The notes beneath the pieces were generated by a model, which had not been told where the DNA came from, did not search any database, and was given only the letters and a program-made list of their open reading frames with translations. Positions 5,488 through 35,331 of a DNA stretch of 64,000 nt are shown here, one piece after another; position 1 is the first letter of the stretch; each line of letters starts with the position of its first letter. A program made the translations under genes and the position numbers. The DNA comes from Streptomyces sp. NBC_00102 (GTDB taxonomy: Bacteria > Actinomycetota > Actinomycetes > Streptomycetales > Streptomycetaceae): NCBI RefSeq assembly GCF_026343115.1, contig NZ_JAPEMC010000001.1, forward strand, positions 1,116,001 through 1,180,000, written 5' to 3'.

Positions 5488-7658
5488 GGCGTACCCCCGT
5501 CGTTTTCGTCGATGATCTCTCCTGTGGCCGTGTTCACGGCGGGTGCGGCCGGGGCGGCCGTGGCGAGGGCCGCGGCCACCGACTCCGCGGTCCTGCGGCC
5601 TATCCCCTGGACCTCACAGATCTCGTCGATTGTCGCCTGCCGCAGCTTCTTGACGGAGCCGAAATGCTTGAGCAGCGCGAGTTTCCGGCTCTCGCCGAGG
5701 CCGGGGACGCCGTCCAGAGGGCTGCTGCGGACCCGCTTGGCGCGTTTGGCCCGCTGGTAGGTGATGGCGAAGCGGTGGGCCTCGTCGCGGACGCGCTGGA
5801 GGAGGTAGAGGCCCTCGCTGGAGCGGGGCAGCACGACGGGATCGTCGTCGTCGGGCAGCCAGACCTCTTCAAGGCGCTTGGCGAGTCCGCAGACGGCGAT
5901 GTCGTCGATGCCCAGCTCGTCCAGGGCACGCTTCGCGGCGGCCACCTGGGGCTGCCCGCCGTCGACCACGACGAGCTGCGGCGGGTAGGCGAACCGTTTG
6001 GGACGGCCGTCGTCCTCGCGCGGCTCGTTGCCCTCGGGGGCGGTCTCCTCGGGGGAGCCGGACTCGGAGGCGTCGGTCCCGGAGGCGTCGGTCCCGGAGG
6101 CATCGGTCCCAGGGAGACCTGTTGCGGGGAGACCTGTTGCGGGGAGACCTGTTGCGGGGAGACCTGTTGCGGGGAGACCTGTTGCGGAGGAGTCGGCCGC
6201 GGAGACGTCGGCTGCGGAGGTGTCCGCCGCGGGCGTCTCCTCCCACTCCCCCAGGCGCTCCTTCTCCTGGAGGTAGCGGCGGAACCTGCGGCCGATCACC
6301 TCGTGCATCGACCGGACGTCGTCCTGGCCCTCGAACCCCTTGATCTGGAAGCGGCGGTACTCGCTCTTGCGGGCCAGCCCGTCCTCGAAGACGACCATCG
6401 ACGCGACGACGTCGTCGCCCTGGAGATGGGAGATGTCGTAGCACTCGATGCGCAGCGGGGCGGTGTCGAGGCCGAGCGCCTCGGCGATCTCCTCCAGGGC
6501 CCGGGAGCGGGTGGTCAGGTCGGAGGCGCGCTTGGTCTTGTGCAGTCCGAGCGCCTGCTGGGCGTTGCGCTGGACCGTCGCCATCAGGTCCTTCTTGTCG
6601 CCGCGCTGCGGGATGCGCAGGCTGACCTGGGAGCCCCGGCGGTGCGCGAGCCATTCGGAAACGGCGTCGGGGTCCTCGGGCAGCGCGGGCACGAGGACCT
6701 CCTTGGGTACGGATTCGCCGGTCTCCTCGCCGTAGAGCTGCTGGAGGGCGTGCTCGACCAGGCCGGAGGTGTCGACCGCCTCCACCTTGTCGGTGACCCA
6801 GCCGCGCTGGCCGCGTACCCGGCCACCGCGCACGTGGAAGATCTGGACGGCGGCCTCCAGCTCGTCCTCCGCGACGGCGATGAGGTCCGCGTCGGTGGCG
6901 TCGGCGAGCACGACCGCGCTCTTCTCCATGGCCCGGCGGAGTGCCTCGATGTCGTCCCGGAGCCGGGCGGCGCGCTCGTACTCCATGTCCTCCGCGGCGA
7001 GCATCATCTCCTTCTCCAGGCGGCGCAGGTAGGCACCGGTGCGGCCGGCCATGAAGTCGCAGAACTCCTCGGCGAGTTCACGGTGTTCCTGGGGGCTGAC
7101 GCGGCCGACGCAGGGGGCGGAGCACTTGCCGATGTAGCCCAGCAGGCAGGGGCGTCCGGTGCGGGCGGCGTTCTTGAGTACCCCGGCGGAGCAGGTGCGT
7201 ACGGGGAAGACGCGGAGCATCAGGTCGACGGTCTCGCGGATCGCCCAGGCGTGGCCGTACGGGCCGAAGTAGCGCACGCCCTTCTTCTTGGCGCCGCGCA
7301 TGACCTGGACGCGGGGGAACTCCTCATTGAGGGTGACCGCGAGGTACGGGTAGCTCTTGTCGTCGCGGTACTTGACGTTGAACCGCGGGTCGAACTCCTT
7401 GATCCAGGTGTACTCCAGCTGCAGCGCCTCGACCTCGGTGGAGACGACCGTCCACTCCACGGACGCGGCCGTGGTCACCATGGTGCGGGTACGCGGGTGG
7501 AGGCCGGCCAGGTCCTGGAAGTAGTTGGCGAGGCGCTGGCGGAGGTTCTTCGCCTTGCCGACGTAAATCACCCGGCGGTGCTCGTCGCGGAACTTGTAGA
7601 CCCCCGGGGAGTCGGGGATCTGTCCCGGCTTGGGGCGGTAGCTGGAGGGGTCTGCCAT
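5484..7658 (-). CDS. uvrC: Excinuclease ABC subunit C
   Basis: UvrC makes both incisions flanking a lesion during nucleotide excision repair. The 724-residue protein has an N-terminal GIY-YIG nuclease ([20 protein letters not shown], about residues 18-37), a UVR motif near 210-245 for UvrB contact, the RNase H-like nuclease (VVVDGGQPQ near 570) and a C-terminal helix-hairpin-helix pair. It is longer than most UvrCs because a repetitive linker of about 57 residues (about 475-531) lies before the second nuclease. It is the first gene of the operon that continues into rapZ, yvcK and whiA, coupling a repair gene to developmental regulators. Confidence 0.97.
6066..6235. repeat. 15-bp tandem repeats inside uvrC
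   Basis: Three adjoining 15-bp arrays, all in frame: three copies at 6066-6110 (coding GTDAS), five at 6114-6188 (coding ATGLP; four identical, the last with one change) and about three degenerate copies at 6185-6235 (coding AADxS). They form a low-complexity Ala/Thr/Ser/Gly linker in UvrC. Because the unit is five codons, copy-number change keeps the frame. Confidence 0.9.
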
Positions 7659-28995: not shown

Positions 28996-29631
28996 TCAGG
29001 CAGGGTGGAATCTGCGCACCAGGCCCCTGAGCGGGATGTCGGCGAGCCAGAACCAGATGGCCGCGAAGGGGTGCCAGGCGAAAGCGAGGGGGACCGACAG
29101 GGCGAAGACCAGCGCCCTCGCCCCCAGGTCGACGGAGACCGACCGGGCGGAGGCTGCCGCCGCACCGCCCTCCGCCCGGCCGGCACCCGGTGTCCACCGG
29201 CCGGGCCGTCCCGTCCTGAGCACCGCCAGACCGAGCAGGTTGGTGACGGCGACGGTGCCGGCGTAGACCGCGACCGCGAGCGGTTCGGAGGCGTATTCGG
29301 AGAGCAGCGACGTCGGGAAGGGGAGGAAGGCGACGGCCCCCAGCCAGGCGAGCGCGAATCGGAGCGGGGGCCCCTCGAACCGGGGCACGAGAGCCAGGAT
29401 GCGCCGGTGGTCGCGCCAGAAGCCCGCGAGGATGACGAAACTGAGCGCGTAGGCGCCGATGTCGGGCAACGCGTCCTGGACGGCGTCCCGGAACCGGGCG
29501 TCGTCCAGGCCACGGGGCACCCGGATGTCGAGCACCAGCAGAGTCATGGCGATCGCGAAGATCCCGTCCGACAGGGCGGTCAGCCGGTCAGCGGTCCTCG
29601 CGCCGTCCGCCCGTGCCCGCTCGTCGCTCAC
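28996..29631 (-). CDS. TMEM175-family potential channel protein
   Basis: A 211-residue membrane protein of the TMEM175/DUF1211 family, whose characterised members are potassium channels. The signature ALSDGIFAIAMTLLVLDI is at residues 18-35, in the first helix. Five to six helices follow, with an Ala/Gly/Arg-rich loop near residues 145-165. GTG 29631 has a GGGGAAG site 9-10 nt upstream. It is on the same strand and downstream of the tRNA-like array, but separated from it by hairpins. Confidence 0.88.
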   Translation of the reverse strand: MSDERARADGARTADRLTALSDGIFAIAMTLLVLDIRVPRGLDDARFRDAVQDALPDIGAYALSFVILAGFWRDHRRILALVPRFEGPPLRFALAWLGAVAFLPFPTSLLSEYASEPLAVAVYAGTVAVTNLLGLAVLRTGRPGRWTPGAGRAEGGAAAASARSVSVDLGARALVFALSVPLAFAWHPFAAIWFWLADIPLRGLVRRFHPA

Positions 29632-29712
29632 CGGGTCAGCTTCCCCGGGCAGCGGGGCGGCCTCGCGGATTACTCCGACGGCGGGCGGGCCGTGGCATAC
29701 CCGCACTCCGGC

Positions 29713-29769
29713 GGCCCGCTCCCCGGGAGAACGGGAGCGGGCCCGGAGGCGTAGCCGGCCTCCGGGCCC
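29713..29769 (-). terminator. Two adjoining hairpins after the tRNA-like array
   Basis: Perfect 12-bp arms at 29739-29750 and 29758-29769 with a 7-nt loop, and a second 11-bp repeat at 29713-29723 and 29733-29743. They share a few bases. They lie downstream of the tRNA-like units in the direction of transcription and upstream of the TMEM175 gene, so they probably end the array transcript. Confidence 0.7.
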
Positions 29770-29828
29770 TGTGGGTGCCGCCTTCGTCGCACGCCGGCAC
29801 GTTTAAGGACCGGGGTCAGTCATGATGT

Positions 29829-29897
29829 CGTCGCGTCCTGCCTTTGGACCACCACAGATCGAGCTCTGCGGACCAGATTCGAACTGGCATTTCGACG
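29829..29897 (-). tRNA. Permuted tRNA-like unit B
   Basis: Minus-strand order is 3' half (29897-29864), a 5-nt spacer, then 5' half (29858-29829). Assembled, acceptor bases 29858-29852 pair with 29871-29865 (7 bp, one G-U), with discriminator G at 29864. The D-stem is a perfect GTCC/GGAC (29849-29846 with 29838-29835) closed by an AAAGGCA loop. The anticodon stem pairs 29833-29829 with 29897-29893 (perfect, 5 bp). The T-arm GCCAG-TTCGAAT-CTGGT is at 29888-29872. T8, A14, the D-loop GG, T54T55C56 and A58 are all present, and A15 can pair with T48. No anticodon loop exists; the flanks 29914-29901 and 29819-29807 pair to extend that helix. Confidence 0.6.
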
Positions 29898-29973
29898 TCG
29901 CTGTGCCCCGGACCGGTCGATCCGGCGATCGGCGGCCCATGCTGAGTCTGGAGCAAGAGTCTGAGATTGATCG

Positions 29974-30097
29974 CGGTCTGCCTCTGCCGGTTGGGCCACT
30001 CCGGCGGGGAGCTGGTGCGTGCCGGGTGCGCCCCGCCGTCGGGCGGGGAGACGCTCGGCAAGTGCCGGAGGGAGGACTCGAACCTCCACTGGAACCG
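29974..30097 (-). tRNA. Permuted tRNA-like unit A
   Basis: Minus-strand order is 3' half (30097-30063), a 57-nt spacer with its own CCCCGCC/GGCGGGG hairpin, then 5' half (30005-29974). Assembled, acceptor bases 30005-29999 pair perfectly with 30070-30064, with discriminator A at 30063 and no encoded CCA. The D-stem is GCC/GGC with a canonical GG-containing loop. Anticodon stem bases 29978-29974 pair with 30097-30093 (one G-U) and can add a sixth pair. The variable loop is CCAGT and the T-arm GGAGG-TTCGAGT-CCTCC. T8, A14 and an A15-T48 pair are kept. Flanks 30110-30119 and 30126-30135 pair with 29961-29969 and 29950-29957 beyond the anticodon stem. Confidence 0.65.
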
Positions 30098-30142
30098 CGT
30101 CCGTCACGACAAGCCTCAGTTTCAGCTTGCGCTCCTCGCGCA

Positions 30143-30170
30143 CCCCGGCCGCGATCAGTGGTGGCCGGGG
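30143..30170 (-). terminator. Hairpin between hypothetical gene and tRNA-like unit A
   Basis: Perfect 8-bp arms (30143-30150 and 30163-30170) with a 12-nt loop, 13 bp after the upstream gene's stop. It may end the mRNA or mark a processing point between the mRNA and the tRNA-like RNA. Confidence 0.5.
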
Positions 30171-30183
30171 AATCCATGGTCGG

Positions 30184-30915
30184 TCACCCGAAGAGGTAAC
30201 CGAATACCGCGTCACCCACCCTCTGGTCGGTGACCTCGGCCGCGTTGGCCTCCTCACGGGCGTACTTCACGGCCTGCTGGAGCTTCTCCACCCGCTCCGT
30301 CAGCTCGCGCACCCGGCGGGCGGGGAGGGCGCCGGAGAACTTCACCGTCGTCCAGTAACCGATCGGCACGTCCTCGTAGTACACCTCGACCTGCGCCGGG
30401 TGCTTCTCGGTGGCCTCCGCCTTCACGTGGTTGCGGGGCACCTTCTTCGTACGGAGGGTGCGCACCGGCTCGGTCTTCCACGCGTCGGCCGAGGGGTCCT
30501 GTGCCCACGCCTCGGAAGCGTCCAGCACCGGCAGCTTGCGGACGAAGGTGCCGATGTCGGTGAGCTGCTTCTCCAGGAAGAGGAGGTAGGAGACCGGGGC
30601 GTCCGCCACGAGTACCCGGCCGTCGACCGTGACGTCCGCGCGGGCCGCGCAGTTCGCCCAGTCCTTGGTGGCGGTCACGTCGAAGAGGCGGGTCAGCGCG
30701 GCCGCGGTGTCCCGCAGTACGTCCTCGGCCTTGACCTGCACCAGCGTCGACTCGGGCGGCAACTGCTCGCCCTCCTCGTCCTTCGGCTGGTACGTACGGG
30801 AGAGCCCGGCCAGCAACCCGGGCTTCTGGAGGCCGTGATGGGCCGCCGTGAGGTCCTGGTGGGCCTTGGACTTGACGCCCTTCTCGACTGCGATGATCTG
30901 ATTGAGTTTCGCCAC
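30184..30915 (-). CDS. Uncharacterised protein upstream of the tRNA-like array
   Basis: A 243-residue soluble protein starting VAKLNQIIAVEKGVKSKAHQ from GTG 30915. I do not recognise a domain with known function; it may correspond to an actinobacterial/phage DUF (DUF7873-like, from memory, unsure). Features are a basic N-terminal third, a conserved-looking middle (CAARADVTVDG, VSYLLFLEKQL) and a basic helical C-terminus (RVRELTERVEKLQQAVKYAREE) that may form a coiled coil. Its stop is only 87 bp before the first tRNA-like half on the same strand, so protein and RNA are probably one functional unit. Confidence 0.7.
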   Translation of the reverse strand: MAKLNQIIAVEKGVKSKAHQDLTAAHHGLQKPGLLAGLSRTYQPKDEEGEQLPPESTLVQVKAEDVLRDTAAALTRLFDVTATKDWANCAARADVTVDGRVLVADAPVSYLLFLEKQLTDIGTFVRKLPVLDASEAWAQDPSADAWKTEPVRTLRTKKVPRNHVKAEATEKHPAQVEVYYEDVPIGYWTTVKFSGALPARRVRELTERVEKLQQAVKYAREEANAAEVTDQRVGDAVFGYLFG

Positions 30916-32377: not shown

Positions 32378-35331
32378 GCGGGCCTCCGGAGCGCGACGAG
32401 GTCGGCGAGGTCGCGGTCGCTGAGCTCGGTCAGCGCGCTCTCGCCGCTGTCGCCCAGCACCGCGTCGGCGAGGGCGCGCTTGGACTCCAGCAGCTCGCCG
32501 ATGCGGTCCTCGACGGTGCCCTCGGCGATCAGACGGTGCACCTGCACGGGCTGTGTCTGCCCGATGCGGTACGCGCGGTCGGTGGCCTGCTCCTCCACCG
32601 CCGGGTTCCACCAGCGGTCGTAGTGCACGACGTGGGCGGCGCGGGTGAGGTTGAGACCGGTGCCGGCGGCCTTGAGGGAGAGCAGGAAGACGGGGACCTC
32701 GCCCTGCTGGAAGCGGTCCACCATGCGTTCGCGCTCGGCCACCGGGGTACCGCCGTGCAGCAGCTGCGAGGGGACCGCGCGGGCGGCGAGGTGGTCGGAG
32801 AGCAGCCGCGCCATCGAGACGTACTGGGTGAAGATCAGCACGGACCCGTCCTCGGCGAGGATGGTGTCGAGCAGCTCGTCGAGGAGGGCGAGCTTGCCGG
32901 AGCGCCCGTCCAGGCGCGGGGCGGGTTCCTTCAGATACTGGGCCGGGTGGTTGCAGATCTGTTTGAGGGAGCCGAGCAGCTTCATGATCAGGCCGCGCCG
33001 GGCGATCCCCTCCGAGGCTTCGATCCGCGCCATCGTCTCGCGGACCGCCGCCTCGTAGAGCGTGGCCTGCTCCCGGGTGAGGGAGACGGGGTGGTCGGTC
33101 TCCGTCTTGGGCGGGAGTTCGGGGGCGATGCCGGGGTCGGACTTCTTGCGGCGCAACAGGAAGGGGCGGACCAGCCGAGCGAGGCGTTCGACGGCCTCGT
33201 CGTTGCCCATGCCCGCGGCGGTCCCGGTGTTCTCGGCCGCCCGGGCGTGCCGGGAACGGAACGCCTTGAGGGGACCGAGCAGCCCCGGGGTGGTCCAGTC
33301 CAGGAGCGCCCAGAGCTCGGAGAGGTTGTTCTCCACCGGGGTGCCGGTCAGCGCCACCCGGGCAGGAGCGGGGATGGTCCGCAGCGCCTTGGCCGTCGAG
33401 GAGTGCGGGTTCTTGACGTGCTGCGCCTCGTCGGCGACGACCAGGCCCCAGCCGTGCGCGGCGAGCTGCTCCGCACCCGAGCGCATCGTGCCGTACGTGG
33501 TCAGCACGAATCCGGCCTCCTCGCCGGGGAGGGTGCGGTCCGTGCCGTGGAAACGGCGGACGGGCACGCCGGGGGCGAAGCGGTTGATCTCCCGGTGCCA
33601 GTTGCCCAGCAGGGAGGCGGGGCAGACCACCAGGGTCGGCGCCGGGTGGGCGCGGTGGAGGTGGAGCGCGATCACGGTGATCGTCTTGCCGAGGCCCATG
33701 TCGTCGGCGAGGCAGCCGCCGAGGCCGAGCGAGGTCATCCGGTCCAGCCAGGTCAGCCCGCGCAGCTGGTAGTCGCGGAGGGTGGCGTGCAGACCGGGCG
33801 GTGGCGGGAGCACGGTGTCCTCGTCGAGGATGCGGGCACGCAGGGCGGCGAGGGCACCGGTGGGTACGGCCTCCACCTGCTCGCCGTCGAGCTCGGCGCT
33901 GCCGGTGAGGGCCACGGCGAGGGCCTCGACGGGTGCGAGGAGACCCAGCTCCCGTTTGCGTGCCTTGCGGACCAGACCGGGGTCGACGACCACCCACTGG
34001 TCGCGCAGCCGCACCACCGGCCGGTGCGATTCGGCGAGGCGGTCCATCTCGGCCTCGGTCAGCGGCTCGTCGCCGAGCGAGAGCTGCCAGTCGAAGGCGA
34101 AGAGACGCTCCGCGTCGAAGAAGGAGGTTCCGTCGGTGGCCGACCCCGGGGCGGAGCGGACCACGGCGGACGCGGTGAGCGAGCGGGCGAGCTCGCGCGG
34201 CCAGTGGAGGCTGACGCCGAGGTCCGCGAGGCGGGCTCCGGCCGCGCCGAGCAGCTCGTACAGCTCGTCCTCGGTGAGGGCGAGCACGTCGGGGACGGGC
34301 TGGTCGAGCAGGCGCTCCAGCGGCGCCCACGCCCGGGCGGCCCGGCGCAGGGCGAGCACGGTGTCGACCCGGGAGCGCGGCCCGAACGGCTCGCCGGCGA
34401 GGCCGCCCCAGAGGGCCGCCGCGTCGGTGACCCGGGTGGGGTCGGCGAGGCTGTGCACCTGGACGACCGCCGCGGCGGCGTGGCGGACGGCGGGGTCGTC
34501 GGGGCCGCCGGACACGCCTTCGGGGGCATGGGTGTCCGAGCTGTCGAAGAGCTCGAAGGCGGACAGGTCGAGCCGGAGCGAGATCTGGACACCGGCGTCC
34601 AGCCCGGCTGCGACCTCCACGGCCCAGGCGGCGACGCCGGGAAGGTGTTGCGCGTCCCGGGCGGCGAACGGCGCCCCCGAGGCGAAGGCCGCGGCGGGGG
34701 TGCGGGGCAGGGTGTCGGCGACCGCGTCCAGGAAGGCTCCGACGAGGAACTCCGGATCGGCGAGGCGCAGCGGGGCCGTGTCGGGCAGCGGCACCGCGTA
34801 CCCCTCGGGCGGCAGGGCCGCGGCGACGGCCCGCAGGTGGGCCACGTCCGTGGCGTCGCGGGGGCCGGCCCGCCAGGCGTCGTGGTCCTCCGGCGTCAGC
34901 CCGGGCAGCATCCGTCCGCGTGCCACGAGGTTGAGGGCGTGCAGGGCGGCCGCTCCCCAGCAGCGGGTGGACGGATGCGCGGAGGGCAGGTGTCTGGCCT
35001 CCGCGAGCAGCGGCACGGCGTCCGCGACCGGCAGCAGCAGGGCGGGCACCCGCCGGCGCCGGACTCCTTGCGTGCCGTGGGCGCGGACGACGGTGATCTC
35101 GGCGATGACCGGACCGTCACCGCCGCTCCGGGGCTCCTGCGGCTCCTCCGGGGAGGGCTCGGCTCCCCCGGTGCCGGGCAGTCGGCCCAGGTGGTCCGCC
35201 GGGTCCCAGCCGGTGTTTCCGGGGTCCCAGAAGGCGATCCGCCCGTCCCGGGGAAGGGGAGCGGGGAGGAAGACGGCGGCGCGCCGCAGCAGGCGGCCCG
35301 TACCGGTGTCGGCCAGGTCCCGCACTGCCAT
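32374..35331 (-). CDS. SNF2-family DEAD/DEAH-box helicase
   Basis: A 985-residue Swi2/Snf2-type ATPase. The first 520 residues include an SNF2_N-associated region, followed by Walker A DDMGLGKTIT near residue 542, the DEAQ box (VVADEAQHVKN) near 632, CNHPAQYL near 795 and a C-terminal helicase domain with IFTQY and DRAYRIGQ near 925. Such enzymes translocate on double-stranded DNA. ATG 35331 is preceded by a GGGGGTGG site, and further in-frame sequence upstream lacks homology. It heads the SNF2-SWIM operon. Confidence 0.95.
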   Translation of the reverse strand: MAVRDLADTGTGRLLRRAAVFLPAPLPRDGRIAFWDPGNTGWDPADHLGRLPGTGGAEPSPEEPQEPRSGGDGPVIAEITVVRAHGTQGVRRRRVPALLLPVADAVPLLAEARHLPSAHPSTRCWGAAALHALNLVARGRMLPGLTPEDHDAWRAGPRDATDVAHLRAVAAALPPEGYAVPLPDTAPLRLADPEFLVGAFLDAVADTLPRTPAAAFASGAPFAARDAQHLPGVAAWAVEVAAGLDAGVQISLRLDLSAFELFDSSDTHAPEGVSGGPDDPAVRHAAAAVVQVHSLADPTRVTDAAALWGGLAGEPFGPRSRVDTVLALRRAARAWAPLERLLDQPVPDVLALTEDELYELLGAAGARLADLGVSLHWPRELARSLTASAVVRSAPGSATDGTSFFDAERLFAFDWQLSLGDEPLTEAEMDRLAESHRPVVRLRDQWVVVDPGLVRKARKRELGLLAPVEALAVALTGSAELDGEQVEAVPTGALAALRARILDEDTVLPPPPGLHATLRDYQLRGLTWLDRMTSLGLGGCLADDMGLGKTITVIALHLHRAHPAPTLVVCPASLLGNWHREINRFAPGVPVRRFHGTDRTLPGEEAGFVLTTYGTMRSGAEQLAAHGWGLVVADEAQHVKNPHSSTAKALRTIPAPARVALTGTPVENNLSELWALLDWTTPGLLGPLKAFRSRHARAAENTGTAAGMGNDEAVERLARLVRPFLLRRKKSDPGIAPELPPKTETDHPVSLTREQATLYEAAVRETMARIEASEGIARRGLIMKLLGSLKQICNHPAQYLKEPAPRLDGRSGKLALLDELLDTILAEDGSVLIFTQYVSMARLLSDHLAARAVPSQLLHGGTPVAERERMVDRFQQGEVPVFLLSLKAAGTGLNLTRAAHVVHYDRWWNPAVEEQATDRAYRIGQTQPVQVHRLIAEGTVEDRIGELLESKRALADAVLGDSGESALTELSDRDLADLVALRRPA

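Follow-up and report, generated by a model that had tools for sequence, protein, structure and literature searches.

Downstream of the DUF7873 gene, two neighbouring units on the same strand (units A and B) each carry a tRNA core in permuted order. On balance, and by analogy, we consider it probable that these units are Ro60-independent, Y-RNA-like tRNA mimics, which likely work with the DUF7873 protein much as Y RNAs work with Ro60. It is close to certain that the conserved element is real, and likely that it is made as RNA and partnered with DUF7873. The sequences directly support the permuted cores and their covariation, in which a tertiary pair takes part; they also support the closing stem of unit B, the linkage to DUF7873 and the absence of any clear association with TROVE. 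Linkage is not the same as binding, and the RNA is predicted from DNA sequence. Y RNAs are known as the partners of Ro60. The same mimic with another protein family would, if true, mean a portable module of more than one particle. It would also give DUF7873, whose Pfam entry gives no function, its first likely function.

Two permuted tRNA-like modules beside the DUF7873 gene

The window is the whole stretch of 64 kb that was analysed. Its features at the locus are as follows, all on the minus strand.

30184..30915, minus: DUF7873 gene (PF25283, 243 aa), likely protein partner, adjoining the RNA units
30143..30170, minus: hairpin CCCCGGCC...GGCCGGGG, lying after the DUF7873 stop codon and before unit A, from the sequence
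30112..30129, minus: 6-nt repeats CAAGCT GAAACT, followed by GAGGCT, 5' of unit A, with a 6-nt period and a putative function
29974..30097, minus: unit A, permuted tRNA-like module (sequence, covariation, match of model R1 with 27.9 bits)
30097-30093, minus: unit A, anticodon 3' strand CGGTT
30092-30088, minus: unit A, CCAGT after the anticodon 3' strand
30087-30071, minus: unit A, T-stem GGAGG/CCTCC around TTCGAGT
30070-30064, minus: unit A, acceptor 3' strand CTCCGGC, then A at 30063 and 57 nt
30005-29999, minus: unit A, acceptor 5' strand GCCGGAG, then TG
29996-29980, minus: unit A, D-stem GCC/GGC around CAACCGGCAGA, then A
29978-29974, minus: unit A, anticodon 5' strand GACCG
29948..29965, minus: core motif CTCAGACTCTTGCTCCAG between units A and B, conserved in DUF7873 loci
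29829..29897, minus: unit B, second permuted tRNA-like module (descriptor; model R1, 73.3 bits)
29777..29936, minus: closing stem of unit B and inner helices carrying module B (minimum-energy fold, compensatory changes)
29936-29931 with 29782-29777, minus: closing stem strands of unit B, GCCGCC with GGCGGC
29739..29769, minus: GC-rich hairpin 3' of unit B, possible RNA 3' end, without a T-run (fold)

Read 5' to 3', unit A runs through the anticodon 3' strand, variable loop, T-arm and acceptor 3' strand to a 57-nt spacer, and continues with the acceptor 5' strand, D-arm and anticodon 5' strand. The sequence-only reading had claimed a T-arm half before an acceptor and D-arm half on the minus strand, with seven acceptor pairs, a 3-bp D-stem and 5-bp T- and anticodon stems, and this was borne out: the acceptor pairs 7/7, the T-stem 5/5, the D-stem 3/3 and the anticodon stem 5/5 with one G-T counted. 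The bases T8, A14 and A15-T48 are also present as it had stated.

Unit B is tighter than unit A, with acceptor strands joined by only six bases. It consists of a T-arm, an acceptor hairpin with the 6-nt loop GCTCGA, a 4-bp D-arm and a 5-bp anticodon stem. Folded alone, unit B of the window formed the closing stem, the anticodon stem and the T, acceptor and D hairpins (z = -2.91). In this minimum-energy fold the anticodon stem runs into a long closing helix and not into a 7-nt anticodon loop. A long stem between the 5' and 3' parts is thus present in unit B, and the closing stem of unit A is poorly supported. The closed acceptor loop is as short as 4 nt in the relative L003. The unit A module is absent in L007 and a short hairpin stands in its place in L013, while the flanks and unit B are kept; from these two sequences the module is a removable part.

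A descriptor search on both strands of the window gave exactly two matches, unit A and 29897-29829, which is unit B. The reversed sequence of 15 related loci (262 kb), used as a control, gave 2 weaker matches with 17 and 19 points. The descriptor demands TTC, A58, T8, GG and near-full pairing, so its own pairing counts are biased. The covariation in 19 loci, the acceptor and anticodon stems of unit B in 45 sequences and the 15:48 test given below were not selected by the descriptor, although the length of the variable loop was picked to suit anticodon pairing.

Further elements surround the two modules. There were 15 pairs of the repeat NAAN(C/T)T at distance 6 in 30 diverse loci; dinucleotide shuffles gave 0.9 pairs with this spacing (at most 4), and the upstream sequence gave 1. 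The core motif CTCAGACTNTNGCTCCAG was found, with up to 3 mismatches, in 80/80 DUF7873 loci (the best 80 of at least 540) and in 0/6 TROVE loci. The 3' strand of the hairpin at 30143-30170 is a possible rival partner for unit A's acceptor 3' strand. A promoter and terminator consensus scan of 29600-30400 found neither.

Linkage to DUF7873 and selection on the fold

A DNA search of 41 genomes, with the window's own included, gave matches in 27. True homologues amounted to 22 loci (L001-L022), and the other five genomes had short matches only. In all 22 loci the upstream gene is DUF7873. The gene is present in 25 of the 41 genomes at 26 places, with two copies each of DUF7873 and module in G026, and the permuted module lies downstream at 26/26, also in G010, G033 and G035, where the DNA search had missed it. 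Among named Streptomyces loci (the best 80 of at least 540 relatives) the module lay downstream of DUF7873 in 80/80 and upstream within 1,500 nt in 0/80, and two or more modules were present in 58/80. In every locus with a module it is downstream of DUF7873 on the same strand. The neighbour genes vary while the pair of DUF7873 and RNA is constant: the window's SWIM-finger gene was found in 26 of these best 80 loci and its TMEM175 gene in none of them, with flanks of up to 3 kb. A Nonomuraea locus also has the module beside DUF7873. A sparse sampling of the phylum had DUF7873 in 6/296 genomes, all of them in the window's genus. The sequence-only reading had pointed to the neighbouring gene family; the role of the second unit, the phage relatives and the Y RNA parallel had escaped it.

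Of 7,998 candidates scored, 6,927 are relatives in the DUF7873 family. The confident AlphaFold models of two members, taken from different parts of the family (pLDDT 91.3 and 91.9), agree in the order of their elements, which are helices, strands and a long beta hairpin. Residues invariant in 71 sequences include N88, P107, W137, T169, H172, A174 and N224. There was no sequence relative in the PDB and no significant fold match for the models, so the fold gives no pointer to RNA binding.

DUF7873 also occurs in phages, with 73 phage records. The module was downstream of the gene in 14/14 phage loci examined from these 73 records, picked for group coverage (Arthrobacter, Rhodococcus, Gordonia, Pseudanabaena, Microcoleus, Rhizobium, Vibrio and Klebsiella); the records named Serratia are outside the 14. 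Two low-scoring minus-strand matches (17 and 19) in real phage loci were left out of the module count. Among IMG/VR loci the module was present in 15/18, and one of the three without it had just 144 nt left. The module is least clear in Microcoleus phage My-WqHQDG (L061), where it stands about 2 kb from DUF7873 behind a HEARO element and where several T-arm-like copies occur at 6560-6920. The HEARO RNA of this phage (129 bits) covers L061:4950-5159, between DUF7873 and the module.

Compensatory changes in homologues of the DUF7873-adjacent locus, which the sequence-only reading had proposed to look for, were found. In a sequence-only alignment of 19 loci (rows L007, L013 and L015 of the combined alignment were dropped), 29/67 predicted pairs had changed on both strands with the pairing retained. 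These pairs belong to the T and acceptor helices of units A and B, to the D helix of unit B and to the closing stem of unit B. From the module set, duplicates and one long spacer were removed. For unit B, 78 of the best 80 of at least 540 loci were anchored by motif (2 lacked anchors) and identical rows were merged into 45 distinct Streptomyces sequences; all 21 pairs are formed in 45/45, and acceptor pair 2:71 is GC in 25 and CG in 20.

The tertiary pair 15:48 is A-T or G-C in 131/136 distinct modules (descriptor score of at least 19, identical modules merged, IMG/VR loci L157, L158, L163 and L168 left out). In phages it is A-T or G-C in 36/38 versus a shuffled mean of 20.0, and this value was reached in 0/5000 shuffles. 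The covarying pair points to a tRNA-like L shape, which is more than hairpins alone would give. Together, the compensatory changes and the covarying 15:48 pair mean that selection acts on the fold. Whole-stretch folds of 334-532 nt showed strong acceptor helices, with D and anticodon stems often weak or lost, and for unit A of L003, 31/200 shuffles folded equally well or better.

The Y RNA parallel and the proposed mechanism

In some bacteria two Y RNAs stand side by side as the yrlBA pair. The bacterial Y RNA YrlA combines a stem with a tRNA-like domain made up of the D, T and acceptor arms; its stem holds the ring protein Rsr/Ro60 and its tRNA-like end holds PNPase, as passages of PMC8394870 describe. 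According to PMC11472068, circular permutation brings the Y RNA structure 6CU1 into superposition with tRNA. The sequence-only reading knew of no routine bacterial annotation for such a permutation; bacteria do have it, in the tRNA-like module of Y RNA (PMC8394870 and PMC11472068). Like YrlA (Salmonella, PDB 6CU1), the units have permuted T, acceptor and D arms on a long stem, and two predicted RNAs are adjacent. Unlike YrlA, they are linked to DUF7873 and not to Ro60/TROVE, their stem motifs differ, two modules lie within one stretch of about 350 nt, and 6-nt repeats are present. In a Listeria phage discussed in PMC12282133, putative Y RNAs accompany an Rsr-like protein. Our literature search for DUF7873, permuted tRNA and Y RNA met no report of this RNA; it covered mostly sources outside subscription journals and is a hint only.

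Both neighbouring units are predicted to be noncoding RNA, which likely assembles with the DUF7873 protein into an RNA-protein particle. The protein would grip the stem part, perhaps at the 6-nt repeats, and the tRNA-shaped end would dock an enzyme that normally handles tRNA, as PNPase does for Y RNAs. By this analogy the RNA might thereby tether or gate the docked tRNA enzyme. Cleavage of the acceptor loop might also produce a CCA end, chiefly in phages. In 19/38 phage and 10/98 bacterial modules, CCA immediately follows the first base past the acceptor 3' strand, which suggests 3'-end processing or RNase P recognition in phages.

A further elaboration is that several DUF7873 proteins cover the RNA at 6-nt intervals and display two mimics with CCA-cut acceptor loops, which could be charged or could seat tRNA enzymes. 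We regard this as doubtful; such a Ro60-independent particle would be conserved between the chromosomes of Streptomyces and phages that infect Vibrio, Klebsiella, Rhizobium, Gordonia and cyanobacteria.

The modules might also be tRNA decoys or stand-ins, which soak up or survive enzymes that cut or modify tRNA (in phages, host defence nucleases), with DUF7873 as a stabilising coat. Ordinary tRNAs are annotated within 4 kb in 11/14 phage loci, and the modules keep the T-loop, the D-loop and the tertiary pair while the unit B fold shows no anticodon loop, all of which would suit such a role. However, anticodon nucleases would find no target in a mimic without an anticodon loop, and phage defence alone does not explain the conservation in Streptomyces chromosomes. 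We consider this reading unlikely.

The units could instead be ordinary Y RNAs bound by Ro60, whose gene simply stands elsewhere in the genome. The covariance model R1, which matches both kinds of RNA with their shared permuted module, was built on unit B only, and its anticodon stem was left unpaired because the anticodon strands were misaligned in the joint alignment of units A and B. Its matches occurred in 40/41 genomes, among them all 26 DUF7873 places, and among the matches listed, sorted by hand, they lay within 1.5 kb of TROVE at no fewer than 17 of 34 TROVE places, in at least 16 of 26 TROVE genomes. The remaining class consisted of single strong matches elsewhere, and the 6 that were fetched were all tandem tRNA-Asn genes. 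TROVE matched in 17 of the 25 genomes with DUF7873, and one of the 14 phage records, Rhizobium phage RHph_TM21B, has TROVE about 5 kb from DUF7873, which agrees with the Ro60 reading. But the window's genome gave no match to TROVE (PF05731), nor did 7 further genomes with DUF7873, nor 13/14 phage records. TROVE is also about equally common without DUF7873 (9/16 versus 17/25 in the 41 genomes), so there is no clear association between the two. The stem motif of the TROVE-linked RNAs was present in 5/6 TROVE loci and in 0/80 DUF7873 loci (the best 80 of at least 540). We consider Ro60-bound Y RNAs a very unlikely identity of the units.

Six TROVE loci (L186-L191) were examined, and permuted modules were present there without ARAGORN tRNAs. 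Each of the six had two R1 matches, three of them had two descriptor matches, and three modules had a TTCGG acceptor loop. The TROVE-linked permuted RNAs of related genomes are presumably classical Y RNAs. Deinobacterium chartae was the sole one of 14 control genomes to match TROVE, and also the sole one to match DUF7873.

tRNA readings and other RNA families

ARAGORN called a linear tRNA-Leu(GAG) at 30062-30149, over the first half of unit A. Such a linear call over this half was made in 44/80 named loci (the best 80 of at least 540), with identities that shift among loci between Phe, Ala, Leu or none assignable. Just upstream, GCCGGGG (30149-30143) could likewise form 7/7 pairs with unit A's acceptor 3' strand. 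In 20/20 copies of unit A, L007 and L013 having none, the permuted partner pairs over its full length (7/7); the best 7-mer in the 40-nt upstream stretch is full in 5/20 copies, the window's among them, and that of a downstream control stretch in 1/20. From these sequences the rival upstream pairing seems possible in some species, but is not conserved.

These calls bear on a reading to which we give a low probability: that the element is a 3' structure acting in cis on the DUF7873 mRNA, a relic of linear tRNA-like form, a tandem-tRNA remnant or an integration site. The constant place of the module downstream of DUF7873 on the same strand and the linear ARAGORN calls are consistent with it, and tandem identical tRNAs, as in the fetched tRNA-Asn pairs, can mimic the permuted pattern. 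Against it, the identity of the linear tRNA changes between loci, the upstream acceptor partner is full far less often than the permuted one, and the covariation shows present selection. In the loci scanned, ARAGORN placed no other tRNA over the modules, except two tRNA-Stop calls in Klebsiella phages. A tandem-tRNA artefact was rejected for the modules; in the third class of R1 matches, 6/6 fetched were such tRNA-Asn pairs.

The weakest reading, highly improbable in our judgement, is a true permuted tRNA gene, whose transcript would undergo circularisation or splicing in the anticodon loop and would yield, through cuts by RNase P and RNase Z, a tRNA active in translation: the gene order, the complete tRNA core, the 15:48 pair and the rightly placed CCA in half of the phage modules (19/38) agree with it, but the anticodon stem of unit B continues as a long helix, the unit A module is missing in two relatives, and we know of no tRNA splicing endonuclease from bacteria. 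Bacterial tRNA introns are self-splicing, as stated in a passage of PMC4390854, which also argues against it. A plain permuted tRNA gene was among the readings rejected. Of the earlier "permuted tRNA" reading, the conserved and covarying fold stands, and the tRNA gene is not the best reading of it.

Algae and archaea have permuted tRNA genes (Soma 2007 and others, as cited in a passage of PMC4390854), which resemble the units in having the 3' half first and a full tRNA core. The units differ from them in being bacterial and phage-borne, in the lack of an anticodon loop in the unit B fold, in the tie to one protein gene and in acceptor loops down to 4 nt (L003).

At the gathering score, Rfam gave no match to the unit A region and no tmRNA match in the window. 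With a permissive threshold, tRNA-Sec matched 30064-30149 with 17.3 bits, where the cut-off is 47. Rfam families, compared with the window and with 13 loci of the L056-L070 set (all but L059 and L066), were rejected as the identity of the units. Two-piece (permuted) tmRNA is a bacterial RNA with a permuted tRNA-like domain. Unlike it, the units have no Rfam tmRNA match and have a full D-stem and anticodon stem. GOLLD and ROOL are large structured noncoding RNAs, some of them in phages; unlike these, the units are built from tRNA-like modules, and there was no Rfam match.

Some tRNA-like observations were made elsewhere. At 33786-33885 of the window, on the plus strand, ARAGORN called a tRNA-Asp within overlapping ORFs, with no Rfam match at gathering score, and this call is probably false. 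The feature table of Gordonia phage Phendrix lists no tmRNA at L058:2072-2600, where Rfam matched tmRNA in the tRNA array (89 bits, 529 nt).

Unit B resembles class I tRNAs in general. A D-arm of the unit A type, GCGGAATTGGTAGACGC, was seen in Klebsiella and Pseudanabaena phages (L060, L065 and L066), and we take this D-arm, as in the window at 30005-29974, to look like that of tRNA-Leu. In two Klebsiella jumbo phages a part of the module (L065:5013-5096 and L066:5018-5097) is annotated as tRNA-Stop(TTA) or tRNA-Sup-TTA. These annotations are likely a mis-call of the permuted module, which would thus explain odd tRNA annotations of this kind.
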